Below, piece after piece: positions 28,491-36,837 of a stretch of 40,006 nucleotides of DNA. The notes below the pieces were generated by a model. That model was not told the DNA's origin. It was given only the letters and a program-made list of their open reading frames with translations, and made no database searches. The DNA comes from Acidimicrobiaceae bacterium (lineage in GTDB: Bacteria; Actinomycetota; Acidimicrobiia; Acidimicrobiales; Aldehydirespiratoraceae), in assembly GCA_002729125.1 (NCBI GenBank), contig PBTQ01000067.1:1-40006 (forward strand), given 5' to 3'. Numbering within the stretch: the stretch's first letter is position 1; each line of letters starts with the position of its first letter. Made by a program: the position numbers and the translations under genes.

Positions 28491-30950
28491 ATGGCGATCA
28501 CGGAGGACCGACTTTCCGCAGTCGGCGACAACGACACGACGGTCGAAACGGCCACCACCATGCGGGTGAAGAAGCGCAACGGCTCGCTCGAACCCGTCGA
28601 TCTCAACAAGATCGTCAACGCCATCGCCCGCGCCTCCGAAGGCCTGATGGGCGTCGACCCGATGGTCGTCTCCACCCGAACGATCTCGGCGCTCGCCGAC
28701 GGCTCCACCACCCAAGAGCTCGATGAGCTGTCGATCCGCACCGCAGCCGGCCTCATCGTCGAGGAGCCCAACTACTCCAAGCTTGCCGCCCGCATGCTGG
28801 CGACCTACGTCGACAAAGAAGTCCGCAACCAGAACGTCCCCTGGTTCTCGGAGTCGGTCACCCTCGGCCACACCCTCGGCCTGATCGGCGACGACGTCCT
28901 GGAGTTCGTCACCACCCACGCCCCCGAACTCAACGCCGCCATCAACTCCCAGCGCGACAAGAACTTCGAGTTCTTCGGCCTGCGCACGGTCTATGACCGC
29001 TACCTCCTCCGCCACCCCGAAACCCGCAAGGTCATCGAGACCCCGCAGTACTTCTTCCTGCGGGTCGCCTGTGGCCTGTCCACCGACGCCGACGAGGCCA
29101 TCAAGTTCTACGACCTCATGTCGTCGCTAGCCTACCTTCCGTCGTCGCCCACTCTGTTTAACTCGGGCACGACCCACCCGCAGATGTCCAGCTGCTACCT
29201 GCTCGACTCGCCTGAGGACTCCCTCGAGGGCATCTATAAGCGCTACACCGACATCGCCCGCCTCTCGAAGTTCGCCGGCGGTATCGGCGTCGCCTGGCAC
29301 CGCATCCGCTCCAAGAACAGCCTGATCGTCGGCACCAACGGCCTCAGCAACGGCATTATCCCGTGGCTCAAGACCCTCGACGCCTCGGTCGCCGCCGTCA
29401 ACCAGGGCGGCCGCCGCAAGGGAGCCGCTTGCGTCTACCTCGAAAGCTGGCACGCCGACATCGACCAGTTCCTCGAACTGCGCGACAACACCGGCGACCA
29501 TGCCCGCCGCACCCACAACATCAACCTCGCCAACTGGATCCCCGACCTCTTCATGGAGCGGGTCGAAAAGGACTGGCAGTGGAGCCTCTTCGATCCCAAA
29601 CGGGTCCCCGAGCTCATCGACACCTTCGGCGAGGAGTTCCGCACCATCTACGAACAGGCCGAGGCCGACGGCCGCTACGAAAAGCAGGTTCCGGCCCGTC
29701 AGCTCTACCAGCGCATGATGAAGACGCTCGCAGAGACGGGCAACGGCTGGATGACCTTCAAGGATCCCAGCAACGAAAAGTGCAACCAGACCGGTCCAGG
29801 CACCGCCGCCGAGGGCAACGCCCGCGACCGGGTCGTGCACCTGTCGAACCTCTGCACCGAAATCCTCGAGGTCACCTCGCAGTCCGAGACGGCGGTGTGC
29901 AACCTCGGTTCGGTCAACCTCGGTGAGTTCGTCGCCGAAACCGACGGAGTCGCTGGCGTGGACTACGAGCGTCTTGGCGAGGTCGTCCGCCAGGTCGTGC
30001 CCTTTCTCGATCGGGTCATCGACATCAACTACTACCCGACCGATGAGGCCGGCGTGTCCAACGCCCGCTGGCGCCCGGTCGGCCTCGGCCTGATGGGCCT
30101 CCAGGACGTCTTCTTTAATCTCGGCGTCCCGTTCGACAGCCCCGTCGCTCGCGGCGTCAGCCGTCGGATATCCGAGGAGATCTACTTCAACGCCCTGTGG
30201 GCCTCCACCGAATTAGCCGAGGCCAACGGCGCCCACGCTGCCTTCCCCGAGACTCGTGCCGCAAACGGCGACCTGCAGTTCGACCTGTGGGGCGTCGAGC
30301 CCTCCGACACCGAGCGTTGGGAGCCACTGCGTGAGCGCATCAAGGCCCACGGTCTGCGCAACTCGCTCATGATCGCCATCGCCCCGACCGCAACGATCGC
30401 CTCGATCGCCGGCTGCTACGAGTGCATCGAGCCCCAGGTCTCGAACCTCTTCAAGCGTGAGACCCTCTCAGGCGAGTTCATGCAGATCAACCGCCACTTG
30501 GTCAAGGAACTCCAGAGCCGGGGCCTGTGGGACGCCGAGATGATCGCCGAGGTGAAGAAGTCCGAGGGTTCGATCCAAGACGTCGACCGGATCCCCGACG
30601 ATCTCAAGGCGATCTACCGCACGGCGTGGGAGATCCCGATGAAGAGCTTGATCGAGATGGCCGCCGACCGCGGCGCCTTCATCGATCAGAGCCAGTCGCT
30701 CAACCTCTTCATGGAGTCGCCCACCATCGGCAAGCTCTCGTCGATGTACATGTACGCCTGGAAGGCCGGTCTCAAGACCACCTACTACCTGCGTTCGCGT
30801 CCAGCGACCAAGATCAACAAGGCCACCGCCGGTGGCTCGGGTGGCCCCACCGGCGGTGGGCAGCCCGCTCCAGAAAAGAAAATGTTCACCGACGATGAGG
30901 CCATCGCCTGCTCGCTGGAGAACCCCGAAGCATGTGAGGCGTGCGACTGA
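28491..30950 (+). CDS. nrdA: Ribonucleoside-diphosphate reductase class I, alpha subunit
   Basis: An 819-residue enzyme that makes deoxyribonucleotides. An ATP-cone regulatory domain occupies about 23-110. Active-site cysteines are C235 (SSCYLLDS) and C470, with the radical cysteine C455 in the N453-x-C455-x-E457 motif (NLCTE). The TTYYLRS motif near the end is the radical-transfer tyrosine pair. The tail C815-x2-C818 (CEACD) is the redox shuttle to thioredoxin or a redoxin, separated by a Gly/Pro-rich flexible linker. The ribosome site AGAGGGG lies five bases before the ATG. Its stop overlaps nrdB (TGATG). The enzyme needs the NrdB tyrosyl radical and therefore oxygen. Confidence 0.97.
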   Translation: MAITEDRLSAVGDNDTTVETATTMRVKKRNGSLEPVDLNKIVNAIARASEGLMGVDPMVVSTRTISALADGSTTQELDELSIRTAAGLIVEEPNYSKLAARMLATYVDKEVRNQNVPWFSESVTLGHTLGLIGDDVLEFVTTHAPELNAAINSQRDKNFEFFGLRTVYDRYLLRHPETRKVIETPQYFFLRVACGLSTDADEAIKFYDLMSSLAYLPSSPTLFNSGTTHPQMSSCYLLDSPEDSLEGIYKRYTDIARLSKFAGGIGVAWHRIRSKNSLIVGTNGLSNGIIPWLKTLDASVAAVNQGGRRKGAACVYLESWHADIDQFLELRDNTGDHARRTHNINLANWIPDLFMERVEKDWQWSLFDPKRVPELIDTFGEEFRTIYEQAEADGRYEKQVPARQLYQRMMKTLAETGNGWMTFKDPSNEKCNQTGPGTAAEGNARDRVVHLSNLCTEILEVTSQSETAVCNLGSVNLGEFVAETDGVAGVDYERLGEVVRQVVPFLDRVIDINYYPTDEAGVSNARWRPVGLGLMGLQDVFFNLGVPFDSPVARGVSRRISEEIYFNALWASTELAEANGAHAAFPETRAANGDLQFDLWGVEPSDTERWEPLRERIKAHGLRNSLMIAIAPTATIASIAGCYECIEPQVSNLFKRETLSGEFMQINRHLVKELQSRGLWDAEMIAEVKKSEGSIQDVDRIPDDLKAIYRTAWEIPMKSLIEMAADRGAFIDQSQSLNLFMESPTIGKLSSMYMYAWKAGLKTTYYLRSRPATKINKATAGGSGGPTGGGQPAPEKKMFTDDEAIACSLENPEACEACD

Positions 30951-32038
30951 TGGCACTGGCAGAAGATCACAACTACGCACTCGCGGCGGAGCCCGCCCAG
31001 ATCAACAACCTCGGCCACTCCGCCAACCGAGGTGCCCACACCAACATTCTCGACCCCGGCTTCGACCTCACGTTGCGGCCAATGCGGTACCCGCAGTTCT
31101 TCGAGATGTACAAGGACGCGATCAAGAACACGTGGACCGTCGAGGAGATCGACTTCTCCGACGATCTCACCGACCTCGATCGCAAGCTGATGCCGGCCGA
31201 GAAGCACCTGATCAGCCGCCTCGTGGCGTTCTTCGCCACCGGCGACTCGATCGTGGCCAACAACCTGGTGCTCAACCTCTACCAGCACATCAACTCGCCC
31301 GAAGCCCGGATGTACCTGAGCCGGCAGCTCTACGAAGAGGCGCTGCACGTCCAGTTCTATTTGAACCTGCTCGACAACTACATCCCGGATCACGACGAGC
31401 GGGCCGAGGCGTTCGCAGCGATCGAGAACATCCCTTCGATCAAGGCCAAGGCCGACTTCTGCTTCAAGTGGATGAGCGGTGTTCCTGACGGGGCCCTGCA
31501 GACCGAGGAGGACCGCAAGCGGTTCCTCATGAACCTCATCTGCTTCGCCACCTGCATCGAGGGCCTGTTCTTCTTTGCGGCGTTCGCCTACGTGTACTTC
31601 CTGCGCAGCAAGGGCCTACTCAACGGTCTCGCCGCCGGCACGAACTGGGTGTTCCGCGACGAGTCGATGCACATGAACTTCGCTCTTGAGGTCATCAATA
31701 CAGTGCGGGCCGAGGAGCCCCAGCTGTTCGACGACGATCTCGGCGAGCGCATCACCGCAATGATCGAAGAGGCCGTCGACGCCGAATTCCAGTTCGCCGA
31801 GGATCTCCTCGGCGAAGGTGTGCCCGGCATGTCCACGGTGGACACCCGTACCTACCTCGAGTTCGTCGCCGATCAGCGTCTGAGCCAGCTCGGCCTGCCC
31901 AAGCGCTTCAACGCCTCGAACCCGTTCGCCTTCATGGAATTGCAGGACGTCCAAGAGCTCTCGAACTTCTTCGAGCGCACTGTCTCGGCCTACCAGGTCG
32001 GCGTCGAGGGCGATGTCTCCTTCGACGAGGACTTCTGA
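30950..32038 (+). CDS. nrdB: Ribonucleoside-diphosphate reductase class I, beta subunit
   Basis: A 362-residue ferritin-fold protein that holds the di-iron centre and tyrosyl radical needed by NrdA. Metal ligands are D99, E130, H133, E204, E238 and H241; the radical tyrosine is Y137, four residues after H133 as in the Escherichia coli enzyme. The acidic C-terminal tail (SFDEDF) docks into NrdA. The ATG shares one base with the nrdA stop. All key residues of a tyrosyl-radical (class Ia) subunit are present, so a Mn/Fe class Ic type without tyrosine is ruled out. Confidence 0.97.
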   Translation: MALAEDHNYALAAEPAQINNLGHSANRGAHTNILDPGFDLTLRPMRYPQFFEMYKDAIKNTWTVEEIDFSDDLTDLDRKLMPAEKHLISRLVAFFATGDSIVANNLVLNLYQHINSPEARMYLSRQLYEEALHVQFYLNLLDNYIPDHDERAEAFAAIENIPSIKAKADFCFKWMSGVPDGALQTEEDRKRFLMNLICFATCIEGLFFFAAFAYVYFLRSKGLLNGLAAGTNWVFRDESMHMNFALEVINTVRAEEPQLFDDDLGERITAMIEEAVDAEFQFAEDLLGEGVPGMSTVDTRTYLEFVADQRLSQLGLPKRFNASNPFAFMELQDVQELSNFFERTVSAYQVGVEGDVSFDEDF

Positions 32039-34400: not shown

Positions 34401-34424
34401 ACCGACCGGAGGGGCCGCTTCAGT
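34396..34424. terminator. Bidirectional stem between convergent stop codons
   Basis: ACTGAA (34396-34401) and TTCAGT (34419-34424) pair over the gap; both stop codons lie in the arms. An inner GC-rich stretch may extend it. Weak to moderate candidate. Confidence 0.35.
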
Positions 34425-35424
34425 AGCCGCGTACCCCGTGGTACGGACTGCCCTTCGCCTTCCAGTCCTCGTAGAGCGCCATGAAGTTCTCTCCGAACGG
34501 GTCCTGCCCTCGGAGCGGCATCATCGCCCGCCGAATGGTCCAGTCCTCAGGGGCCAGTTCGGCGGCCCGATCGAAGTTCCGGTCGCAGCCAGCTTGATCG
34601 CCCCGATCACGCAACGCGAGCGCGAGACGGAAGTGGAGACGGGCGGCTTCTTCCTCGCTAGAGAGATCACCCACCACACCGATCGCCTCACCCGTCGACA
34701 TCCCTGCATCGCCCTCGCGCACCCAGCGACGGATCCGGTCGTGCTGCTTGCCGGATTCGACACCGGTGAACTCGCTGAACAGGTCGCTGCCATAGGCGCT
34801 CCAGTTCGGCATGGCGATCGTGTCGTCCTCGTTGACCAACACAACGGTAGGGACATTTGAGATCGCGTAAAGCTCGGTGACGACATGATGGGCATCAACC
34901 ACCACCGGGTAGGTAATTCCCTCGGCCAACTCACGGAGCTTCTCGATGTTTTCGTCGATGGCGACGGCAATGATCTCGAAGTCCGTGTGCCCCTCGGCGT
35001 GGATTTCATTTTGCAGTGTCTGCCACCCGGGCAGCTCGTAGCCGCACCCTCACCAACTGGAGAAGGCGATCAACAGCCGTTTTTTGCTGCGATGATCGCT
35101 CAGCGAGGTGACCCCGCCGCCCGTAAGGTTGGGCAGGGTGAAGTCGGGAGCGACGAGATCGTCGAGTGCCTGGCGGCGAGCCACCCGGGGCACACCGATC
35201 GCAGCGAGACCCGCCTCGGTATCGATGGCGACGGGACGGTCGAGTAGATCACCGAGGACGGCCAGACCAAGGCCGTCGTTGGAAACGAGGGCGCCACGGT
35301 CAGGGATGAGCACACACGTGTCGTCCTGACAAAGCCCCTCTGGCTTGAGCGTCCAGCCGAGTTCGGCGAGTTGGGCCTCGCTGATCGTGCCGAACGAGTC
35401 GAGCAGTGCAGTGTCGTTGGCCAT
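34420..35424 (-). CDS. Candidate selenoprotein: thioredoxin-fold (AhpC/TSA-like) protein with Sec at an in-frame TGA
   Basis: Reading through a single TGA (35052-35050) gives 334 residues. Before it are a 90-residue N-terminal part and the redoxin start (PDFTLPNLTGG, SLSDHRSKKRLLIAFSSW). At the TGA, residue 125, relatives have the first active-site cysteine: the motif becomes W-U-G-C with C127, followed by GYELPGWQTLQNE. Further on are the cis-proline loop SNVPTVVLV and a TPR-like helical tail ending DPFGENFMALYEDWKAKGSP. Upstream and downstream parts are in the same frame, no other stop occurs, and both look conserved. So insertion of selenocysteine is more likely than a nonsense mutation. 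It probably reduces disulfides or peroxides. ATG 35424 has TACGGT six bases upstream. The selenocysteine machinery is not in this window. Confidence 0.78.
35020..35052 (-). promoter_or_regulatory. Sec TGA codon with bacterial SECIS-like hairpin
   Basis: On the minus strand the TGA (35052-35050) is followed, after 15 bases, by CTGCC (35034-35030), loop CGGGT (35029-35025) and GGCAG (35024-35020). This is a perfect five-pair stem with a G- and GU-containing loop that begins 20 bases after the TGA. Known bacterial SECIS elements have a short stem with a G in the small loop about 16-37 bases from the TGA, so the position fits binding by SelB. Confidence 0.6.
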
Positions 35425-35466: not shown

Positions 35467-36723
35467 TCAGGCCGGCTCCGACGGTGGTGTGGCGAAAATC
35501 CAGAAGACGGTGCCGCAGGCCGCCGCAACGCCAAGGATCGTGAAGCCGAGGCGATAGTCGCCAGTGGCATCGGCGAGTGAGCCGGCGATCAGCGGGCCGG
35601 CGATCGCGCCCATCGTCACGATGATGTTTGACCAACCCATGATCGAGGCGAACGATGTCGATCCGAAGTAATCGGCTCGGATCGCTTGCATCTGCGGGCC
35701 GCGCACACCCCATGCAAGTCCATGGAGGACGATGAAGATCACGACGGCGAATCCTGCGTCAATCCACACTAGGCCGAGCAACGCAGCGCCATGCATCTGC
35801 ATCGCGACACCCGAGATCAGCCGCTTGTTGATCCGGTCGCCGAGGTAGCCGCCGGCCGCTGTGCCGAGGATCTGCACGAGCGGCACGATGCCCGCCACGA
35901 TCGCCGCCGAGCCAGCCGAGTAGCCACGGTCTTCGGTGAGGTAGAGCGCGAGGTGGGCCATCGACGACACGACGACGAGCAGGGCAAACGCGTGTCCGAA
36001 CGAGATCATCCAGAAGCCCCGTGTGCGCAACGCCTGTTGGGCCGTGAGGTGGCGCCCGGTGCTCCCCTCGGCGTCGGGGGTGGCGTCGGCCTCGGCCGCA
36101 GTGAGGCCGTCCATTGGTTCGCCCGTGTCCTCTGGGCGGCGACCAGTGATCCCGGCCGCCCACCATGCGGCGCTCGAGAGGACCCCACCGACGACCAGGA
36201 CCGTCGCTCGCCAACCGACCGTCTGGAATCCCAAGACCATGATCGGTGCAGCGAACCCGCCGAGCGCGAAGCCCATCGTCTGGATCGACAGTGCTCGGGC
36301 TCGCCGTTTCTCGAACCAGGCGACGGTCGCCGCCGAGATGGTGAGAAAGCCGACCAGGCTCATGCCAATCGCCAGCAGAAGCATCGCGAGGAGGAACTGG
36401 GCGCGGCTATCGATCACGGCGACGGCGACGAAGCCGGCAGCGCTCGCGATCGCGCCGGCGCGCATCACCGGGGCGACACCTCGACGCTGGATCTCTCGTC
36501 CCTGCACCGGCCCGATGAAGGCGATCTCAGCGCGCGTTGCCCCGAAGACGACCGAGAGGAAGGTCTTCGACCAGCCAAACTGATCTCGGAGTTCCACGGC
36601 GAGATTCCCGAATCCCTGGACCCACACCATCGACTGGAGCGACCACACGACGGAGTTAGCGCCAACCACCTTCCATCCTGTGTACCGGCGCCGAGCCGTG
36701 GTGTCGGTGGTGGGTTCCGCCAT
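35467..36723 (-). CDS. MFS transporter (OFA/monocarboxylate-like)
   Basis: A 418-residue, 12-helix membrane transporter. The first half has SMVWVQGFGNLAVELRDQFG and a loop with GREIQRRGVAPVM in the A-motif place. The second half, after a hydrophilic loop (about 200-230), includes GGYLGDRINKRLISG as second A-motif. The pattern resembles the oxalate/formate or monocarboxylate branch, where the substrate is often an organic acid; this is inference. I chose ATG 36723 rather than a start 33 bases upstream. It lies between the selenoprotein gene and the mmsA operon on the same strand, 42 and 114 bases away, without clear coupling. Confidence 0.87.
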   Translation of the reverse strand: MAEPTTDTTARRRYTGWKVVGANSVVWSLQSMVWVQGFGNLAVELRDQFGWSKTFLSVVFGATRAEIAFIGPVQGREIQRRGVAPVMRAGAIASAAGFVAVAVIDSRAQFLLAMLLLAIGMSLVGFLTISAATVAWFEKRRARALSIQTMGFALGGFAAPIMVLGFQTVGWRATVLVVGGVLSSAAWWAAGITGRRPEDTGEPMDGLTAAEADATPDAEGSTGRHLTAQQALRTRGFWMISFGHAFALLVVVSSMAHLALYLTEDRGYSAGSAAIVAGIVPLVQILGTAAGGYLGDRINKRLISGVAMQMHGAALLGLVWIDAGFAVVIFIVLHGLAWGVRGPQMQAIRADYFGSTSFASIMGWSNIIVTMGAIAGPLIAGSLADATGDYRLGFTILGVAAACGTVFWIFATPPSEPA

Positions 36724-36837
36724 ACGGCGATCGTGCCCTCGTGGTCGTCGAAACACAACAACCGTCGTCTTCGCTACTGGAGTTCTGCTGGCCGCAGTGC
36801 CGCGCTCGTTGCGCGAGATCCGCCGACGGCTCCGGGG

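Follow-up and report, generated by a model that had tools for sequence, protein, structure and literature searches.

A TGA-interrupted thioredoxin-fold gene of an Acidimicrobiaceae bacterium as a divergent member of a known selenoprotein family

A stretch of 40,006 nucleotides from an Acidimicrobiaceae bacterium (hereafter, the window) was analyzed, and one locus on its minus strand is, with high confidence, a single selenoprotein gene in which SelB and a hairpin would direct selenocysteine (Sec) to UGA codon 125. Its product is most likely a ResA/TlpA-like disulfide (or peroxide) reductase. The gene is complete, encodes 334 residues, and spans positions 34420 to 35424, from an ATG at 35424-35422 to a terminal TGA at 34422-34420. 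A first open reading frame of 124 residues (35424-35050), which starts at the ATG, closes at a TGA at 35052-35050; beyond this codon, the frame meets no further stop until the terminal TGA. An earlier note on this DNA had regarded the two minus-strand frames as one gene cut by this single TGA, and its coordinates proved exact. The residues around codon 125 read S-S-W-U-G-C-G-Y-E-L-P, with U125 encoded by the TGA and the putative resolving residue, Cys127, encoded by a TGC at 35044-35046. U125 and C127 are thus separated by one residue (UxC), in contrast to the usual CxxC or UxxC of thioredoxins.

The in-frame TGA is conserved. Ten relatives covering the site were obtained from a scan that retained one genome per species (nine are contigs from acidimicrobial metagenome-assembled genomes, and the tenth is gammaproteobacterial), and codon 125 was TGA in all ten, at identities falling from 97% to 32%. 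In four close relatives, dN/dS was 0.04-0.08 downstream of the TGA compared with 0.2-0.4 upstream, indicating that the part after the stop is a translated protein under selection. The gene for a major facilitator superfamily (MFS) transporter upstream terminates in TGA, and TGA is therefore an ordinary stop elsewhere, as the earlier note had remarked of the neighboring genes.

The residue at position 125 was then compared across a tree and alignment of 93 homologues, comprising 76 TGA rows and 17 rows in which precisely that codon column holds TGC or TGT. Positions 32, 37, 125, and 127 were Cys or Sec in all 93, and C32, C37, U/C125, C127, N190, and P192 were invariant. The earlier note had named homologues with Cys or U at residue 125 as support for its reading, and only Sec or Cys occurs there; N190 and P192, which never vary, belong to the cis-Pro loop. 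Neither a Cys codon nor a frameshift was found at the site in close relatives. The only change of the intervening Gly among the 93 homologues was W-U-T-C in place of W-U-G-C, in L108. On a quick tree of these sequences, at least nine changes between Sec and Cys were counted, five of which are forced by well-supported branches.

Across the class, the two forms are associated with the presence or absence of selA. Among 395 genomes searched with the NCBIfam model NF041054 and for selA, selA was detected in 259. A strong TGA-containing match was found in 98 genomes, 94 of which carry selA, while 16 of the 17 genomes with the uninterrupted (Cys) form lack it (Fisher p 5e-15, a value to be taken as indicative since related genomes were counted as independent, here as in the homologue counts). 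The exceptions are four TGA-form genomes in which selA was not detected and a single genome of the Cys form, G162 (L065), that carries it. The selA of G162 scored 603 bits, far above the others of the class; with an assembly contamination of 5%, this score suggests that the gene may be foreign. In G392, which belongs to the same genus as the window and has selA, the NF041054 search gave no strong family match, and the gene may thus not be universal in the genus.

A SECIS-type apical hairpin, CTGCC-CGGGT-GGCAG, lies on the minus strand at 35020-35034 (loop 35029-35025), 20 nt past the TGA. Published rules for bacterial SECIS elements (PMC13188914) give a loop of 3-9 nt, an upper stem of 4-16 bp, a G within the first two loop bases, a spacing of 16-37 nt, and a minimum free energy of -7.5 kcal/mol or lower. 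The window hairpin fits them with a loop of 5, a stem of 5, G as the second loop base, and the 20-nt spacing; a constrained fold of the 48-mer gave -11.2 kcal/mol, a 26-nt piece -7.3 kcal/mol, and the hairpin alone -6.0 kcal/mol. All five pairs form in each of 74 distinct Sec sequences but in only 9 of 17 Cys sequences (p 3e-7), and a G within the first two loop bases was present in all 74. Conserved Leu and Gln codons underlie the stem, and Sec genes use only those codons that pair. Compensatory pairs were also observed, namely TTG..CAA in L026 and L061, and CTT..AAG in L116, where Gln is also replaced by Lys. When the 48-nt window RNA was folded in isolation, a competing hairpin was the minimum-energy fold (-14.5 kcal/mol), and the conserved hairpin was 3.3 kcal/mol weaker; this competing hairpin would probably be opened by a ribosome positioned at the UGA.

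The Sec machinery that the earlier note had proposed to look for (selA, selB, selD, and tRNA-Sec) is all encoded in the same genome, a draft assembly of 118 contigs that is 89.9% complete. The tRNA-Sec has the anticodon UCA and scores above the Rfam cut-off, and selA and selD scored 374.6 and 364.9 bits, respectively. selB (289 bits) adjoins selA on the same contig and is cut by the contig end, beyond which its C-terminal SECIS-binding part would lie. SelD itself is a selenoprotein here, its motif G-A-G-U-G-C-K containing a TGA in frame (contig C3:20401-21327, L017), so that Sec is very probably inserted at TGA codons of other genes in this organism as well. The genome also encodes a further likely selenoprotein with a thioredoxin fold, a TlpA-like, lipoprotein-type protein with the motif W-A-P-W-U-A-T-C (UxxC), on contig C52:1946-2470 (L032, L123). 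Its TGA is retained in more than 12 relatives, and uninterrupted forms occur in G110, which lacks selA, and in G414.

These observations bear on other explanations of the TGA. The two frames might be the remains of a dead gene interrupted by a recent nonsense mutation, and a gene caller would indeed list two separate ORFs. However, the same TGA recurs in relatives with as little as 32% identity and occupies 76 of the 93 rows of the tree, the only alternative residue there is Cys, and dN/dS past the TGA remains at 0.04-0.08; the conservation of the TGA refutes the reading as a pseudogene, whose probability is negligible. Nor is it credible that the TGA is an assembly or sequencing error for a real TGC or TGT. 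The fragmented source assembly would leave room for such an error, but the TGA is shared by genomes that several projects assembled independently, and the synonymous changes near it differ among them.

Read-through by itself leaves the inserted residue unnamed, and a suppressor could in principle insert Trp, Gly, or Cys in place of Sec. We consider this very improbable, given that the homologous residue is otherwise only Cys and that tRNA-Sec is present. Moreover, TGA-form genomes carry selA where Cys-form genomes do not, the hairpin is complete in all TGA forms against about half of the Cys forms, and neighboring genes stop at TGA. An altered genetic code was likewise rejected on the conservation of the TGA, the link with selA, the hairpin, and the selection. 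Decoding of codon 125 as Sec draws on a conserved Sec/Cys position, the Sec machinery, SECIS conservation, the predicted fold, and selection, all read from sequence, and selenium incorporation at residue 125 would be expected in vivo.

The read-through protein consists of three parts. The conserved N-terminal domain (residues 1-85; 35424-35170), for which a Pfam search gave no match, bears the motif L-G-W-x-L-K-P-E-G-L-C-Q-D-x-x-C. Within it, a C32-x4-C37 pair (CQDDTC; 35314-35331, minus strand), both of whose cysteines are present in 93 of 93 homologues, lies outside the thioredoxin domain. No hydrophobic stretch was seen by eye in the N-terminus, MANDTALLDSFGTISEAQLAEL. The thioredoxin-fold domain (approximately residues 85-238; 34710-35170, minus strand) is ResA/TlpA-like, with the cis-Pro loop NVP at 190-192. 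Pfam AhpC-TSA and Redoxin matched residues 92-203, AhpC-TSA (PF00578) with an E-value of 2.4e-9 and 37.6 bits against a cut-off of 26. The C-terminal region (34423-34707, minus strand) is made up of helices and weakly resembles TPR sequences (TPR_2, with an E-value of 0.003 that falls below the cut-off). A search of PHROGs gave no match. An AlphaFold2 model built from 11 window and locus sequences had a mean pLDDT of 88 and a pTM of 0.86 and was all-helical in the C-terminal region. Residues 85-238 of the model matched ResA (1st9) with a Z-score of 13.9 and an rmsd of 2.3 Å over 134 residues at 24% identity, other parts being barely covered, and also matched DsbE-like proteins and TlpA.

The selenoprotein reading of the earlier note was thus supported; its family, however, has been described previously, and the gene is a new member on a divergent branch rather than a new type of selenoprotein. 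The closest described family is NF041054 (ResA-like WAxxUGC, WAxxUGC_long), which matched the read-through protein with an E-value of 1.8e-47 and 162.3 bits, below its cut-off of 300, and each half alone with just 63-73 bits. Homology extends over nearly the full length, the UGC is at the same place, the N-terminal CxxxxC is invariant, and most members have an in-frame TGA, as in the window gene. Unlike this equivalog, the window protein has F-S-S-W-U-G-C rather than W-A-x-x-U-G-C, retaining UGC with F-S in place of W-A. A literature search for "WAxxUGC" found no paper, and one on CGC-type thioredoxin sites yielded none that is used here. Table 2 of the Global Ocean Sampling (GOS) selenoproteome study of 2008 contains a "Prx-like (UGC-containing)" family (pfam00578) with 46 sequences in the Sec form and 855 in the Cys form (PMC2398784), a later review lists a "UGC-containing Prx-like protein" (PMC9312934), and a "UGC-containing TlpA disulfide reductase family protein" is also listed (PMC13188914). 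The Prx-like family shares with the window protein the Pfam00578 domain, the UGC motif, and many Cys homologues, and the two are equated by domain and motif only. The entries in these three sources give no functional assignment and describe no N-terminal CxxxxC. Compared with the thiol-disulfide oxidoreductases ResA, TlpA, and CcmG, the window protein shares the thioredoxin domain and the cis-Pro loop but has UxC instead of CxxC (one spacer rather than two), carries extra N- and C-terminal domains, and shows no obvious signal for export or anchor in the membrane. UxxC TlpA-like selenoproteins, such as the one on C52, also place Sec in a thioredoxin-fold active site, but differ in spacing, in their lipoprotein-like N-terminus, and in lacking the extra domains.

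Based on these features, a mechanism can be proposed. SelB, directed by the hairpin just 3' of the TGA, would bring selenocysteyl-tRNA-Sec to UGA codon 125, yielding a protein in which the N-terminal Cys-x4-Cys domain is followed by the ResA/TlpA-like domain with W-U-G-C and a helical TPR-like tail. The selenolate of Sec125, as the nucleophile at the thioredoxin position, would attack the substrate, and Cys127 would resolve the intermediate to form a Sec-Cys selenenylsulfide, which may be re-reduced by C32/C37 or by another thiol in the cell. The enzyme most likely resides in the cytoplasm and uses its selenol to reduce disulfides (or peroxides). We infer its location, the direction of its redox reaction, its substrate, and the participation of C32/C37 in a relay; the invariance of C32, C37, U125, and C127 suggests that electrons pass from C32/C37 to the U-G-C motif or in reverse. 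Tentatively, we suggest that the family may operate a self-contained cytoplasmic relay between CxxxxC and a one-spacer Sec-Gly-Cys, with repeated switching between Sec and Cys across the class upon loss of the Sec machinery and the four redox residues always kept.

The main functional rival is a selenoprotein acting as a peroxiredoxin-like peroxidase rather than as a disulfide reductase. The AhpC-TSA/Redoxin match and the name "Prx-like (UGC-containing)" in older papers (PMC2398784, PMC9312934) are consistent with such a role. However, the nearest folds and sequences are reductases of the ResA, TlpA, and DsbE types and not peroxiredoxins, and Sec occupies the thioredoxin nucleophile position, preceded by Trp and with the resolving Cys two residues after it. 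We regard a peroxidase as unlikely, though to be taken seriously, and prefer the disulfide reductase.

The MFS gene (35467-36756, minus strand; PF07690, 4e-36) is the adjacent upstream gene, lies in the same direction, and is a probable operon partner in this genus; in L022, whose selenoprotein is 66% identical, the two genes overlap where the MFS gene stops and the selenoprotein gene starts. The neighbors are different in L023, a more distant relative, on the side that is sequenced, and the context thus yields no substrate. Ribonucleotide reductase genes are located nearby in the window (28491-32038, opposite strand) and in L022 (7229-10905, directly downstream and convergent). This proximity is probably local synteny only, and the genes were set aside as functional context because they are on the other strand and are not a conserved neighbor. 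An unannotated stretch of a plasmid of Streptomyces sp. NBC_00536 (L129) resembles the C-terminal half of the family; it was rejected as a member, being a decayed, frame-broken remnant without the UGC region.

The branch to which the window gene belongs, whose named relatives are Acidimicrobiales, is well conserved and lies below the curated NF041054 cut-off, so that automatic naming is expected to miss the gene. Its members would be called as two fragments, and their recognition as one gene likely corrects an annotation failure. The lineage has at least three selenoprotein genes, encoding SelD, the window protein, and the TlpA-like UxxC protein, and the searchable open-access literature holds almost nothing on Sec in this class. 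The repeated switches between Sec and Cys, which go together with selA and with hairpin decay, constitute a natural experiment on Sec retention, and the invariant CxxxxC and UGC motifs lead to a testable mechanism.
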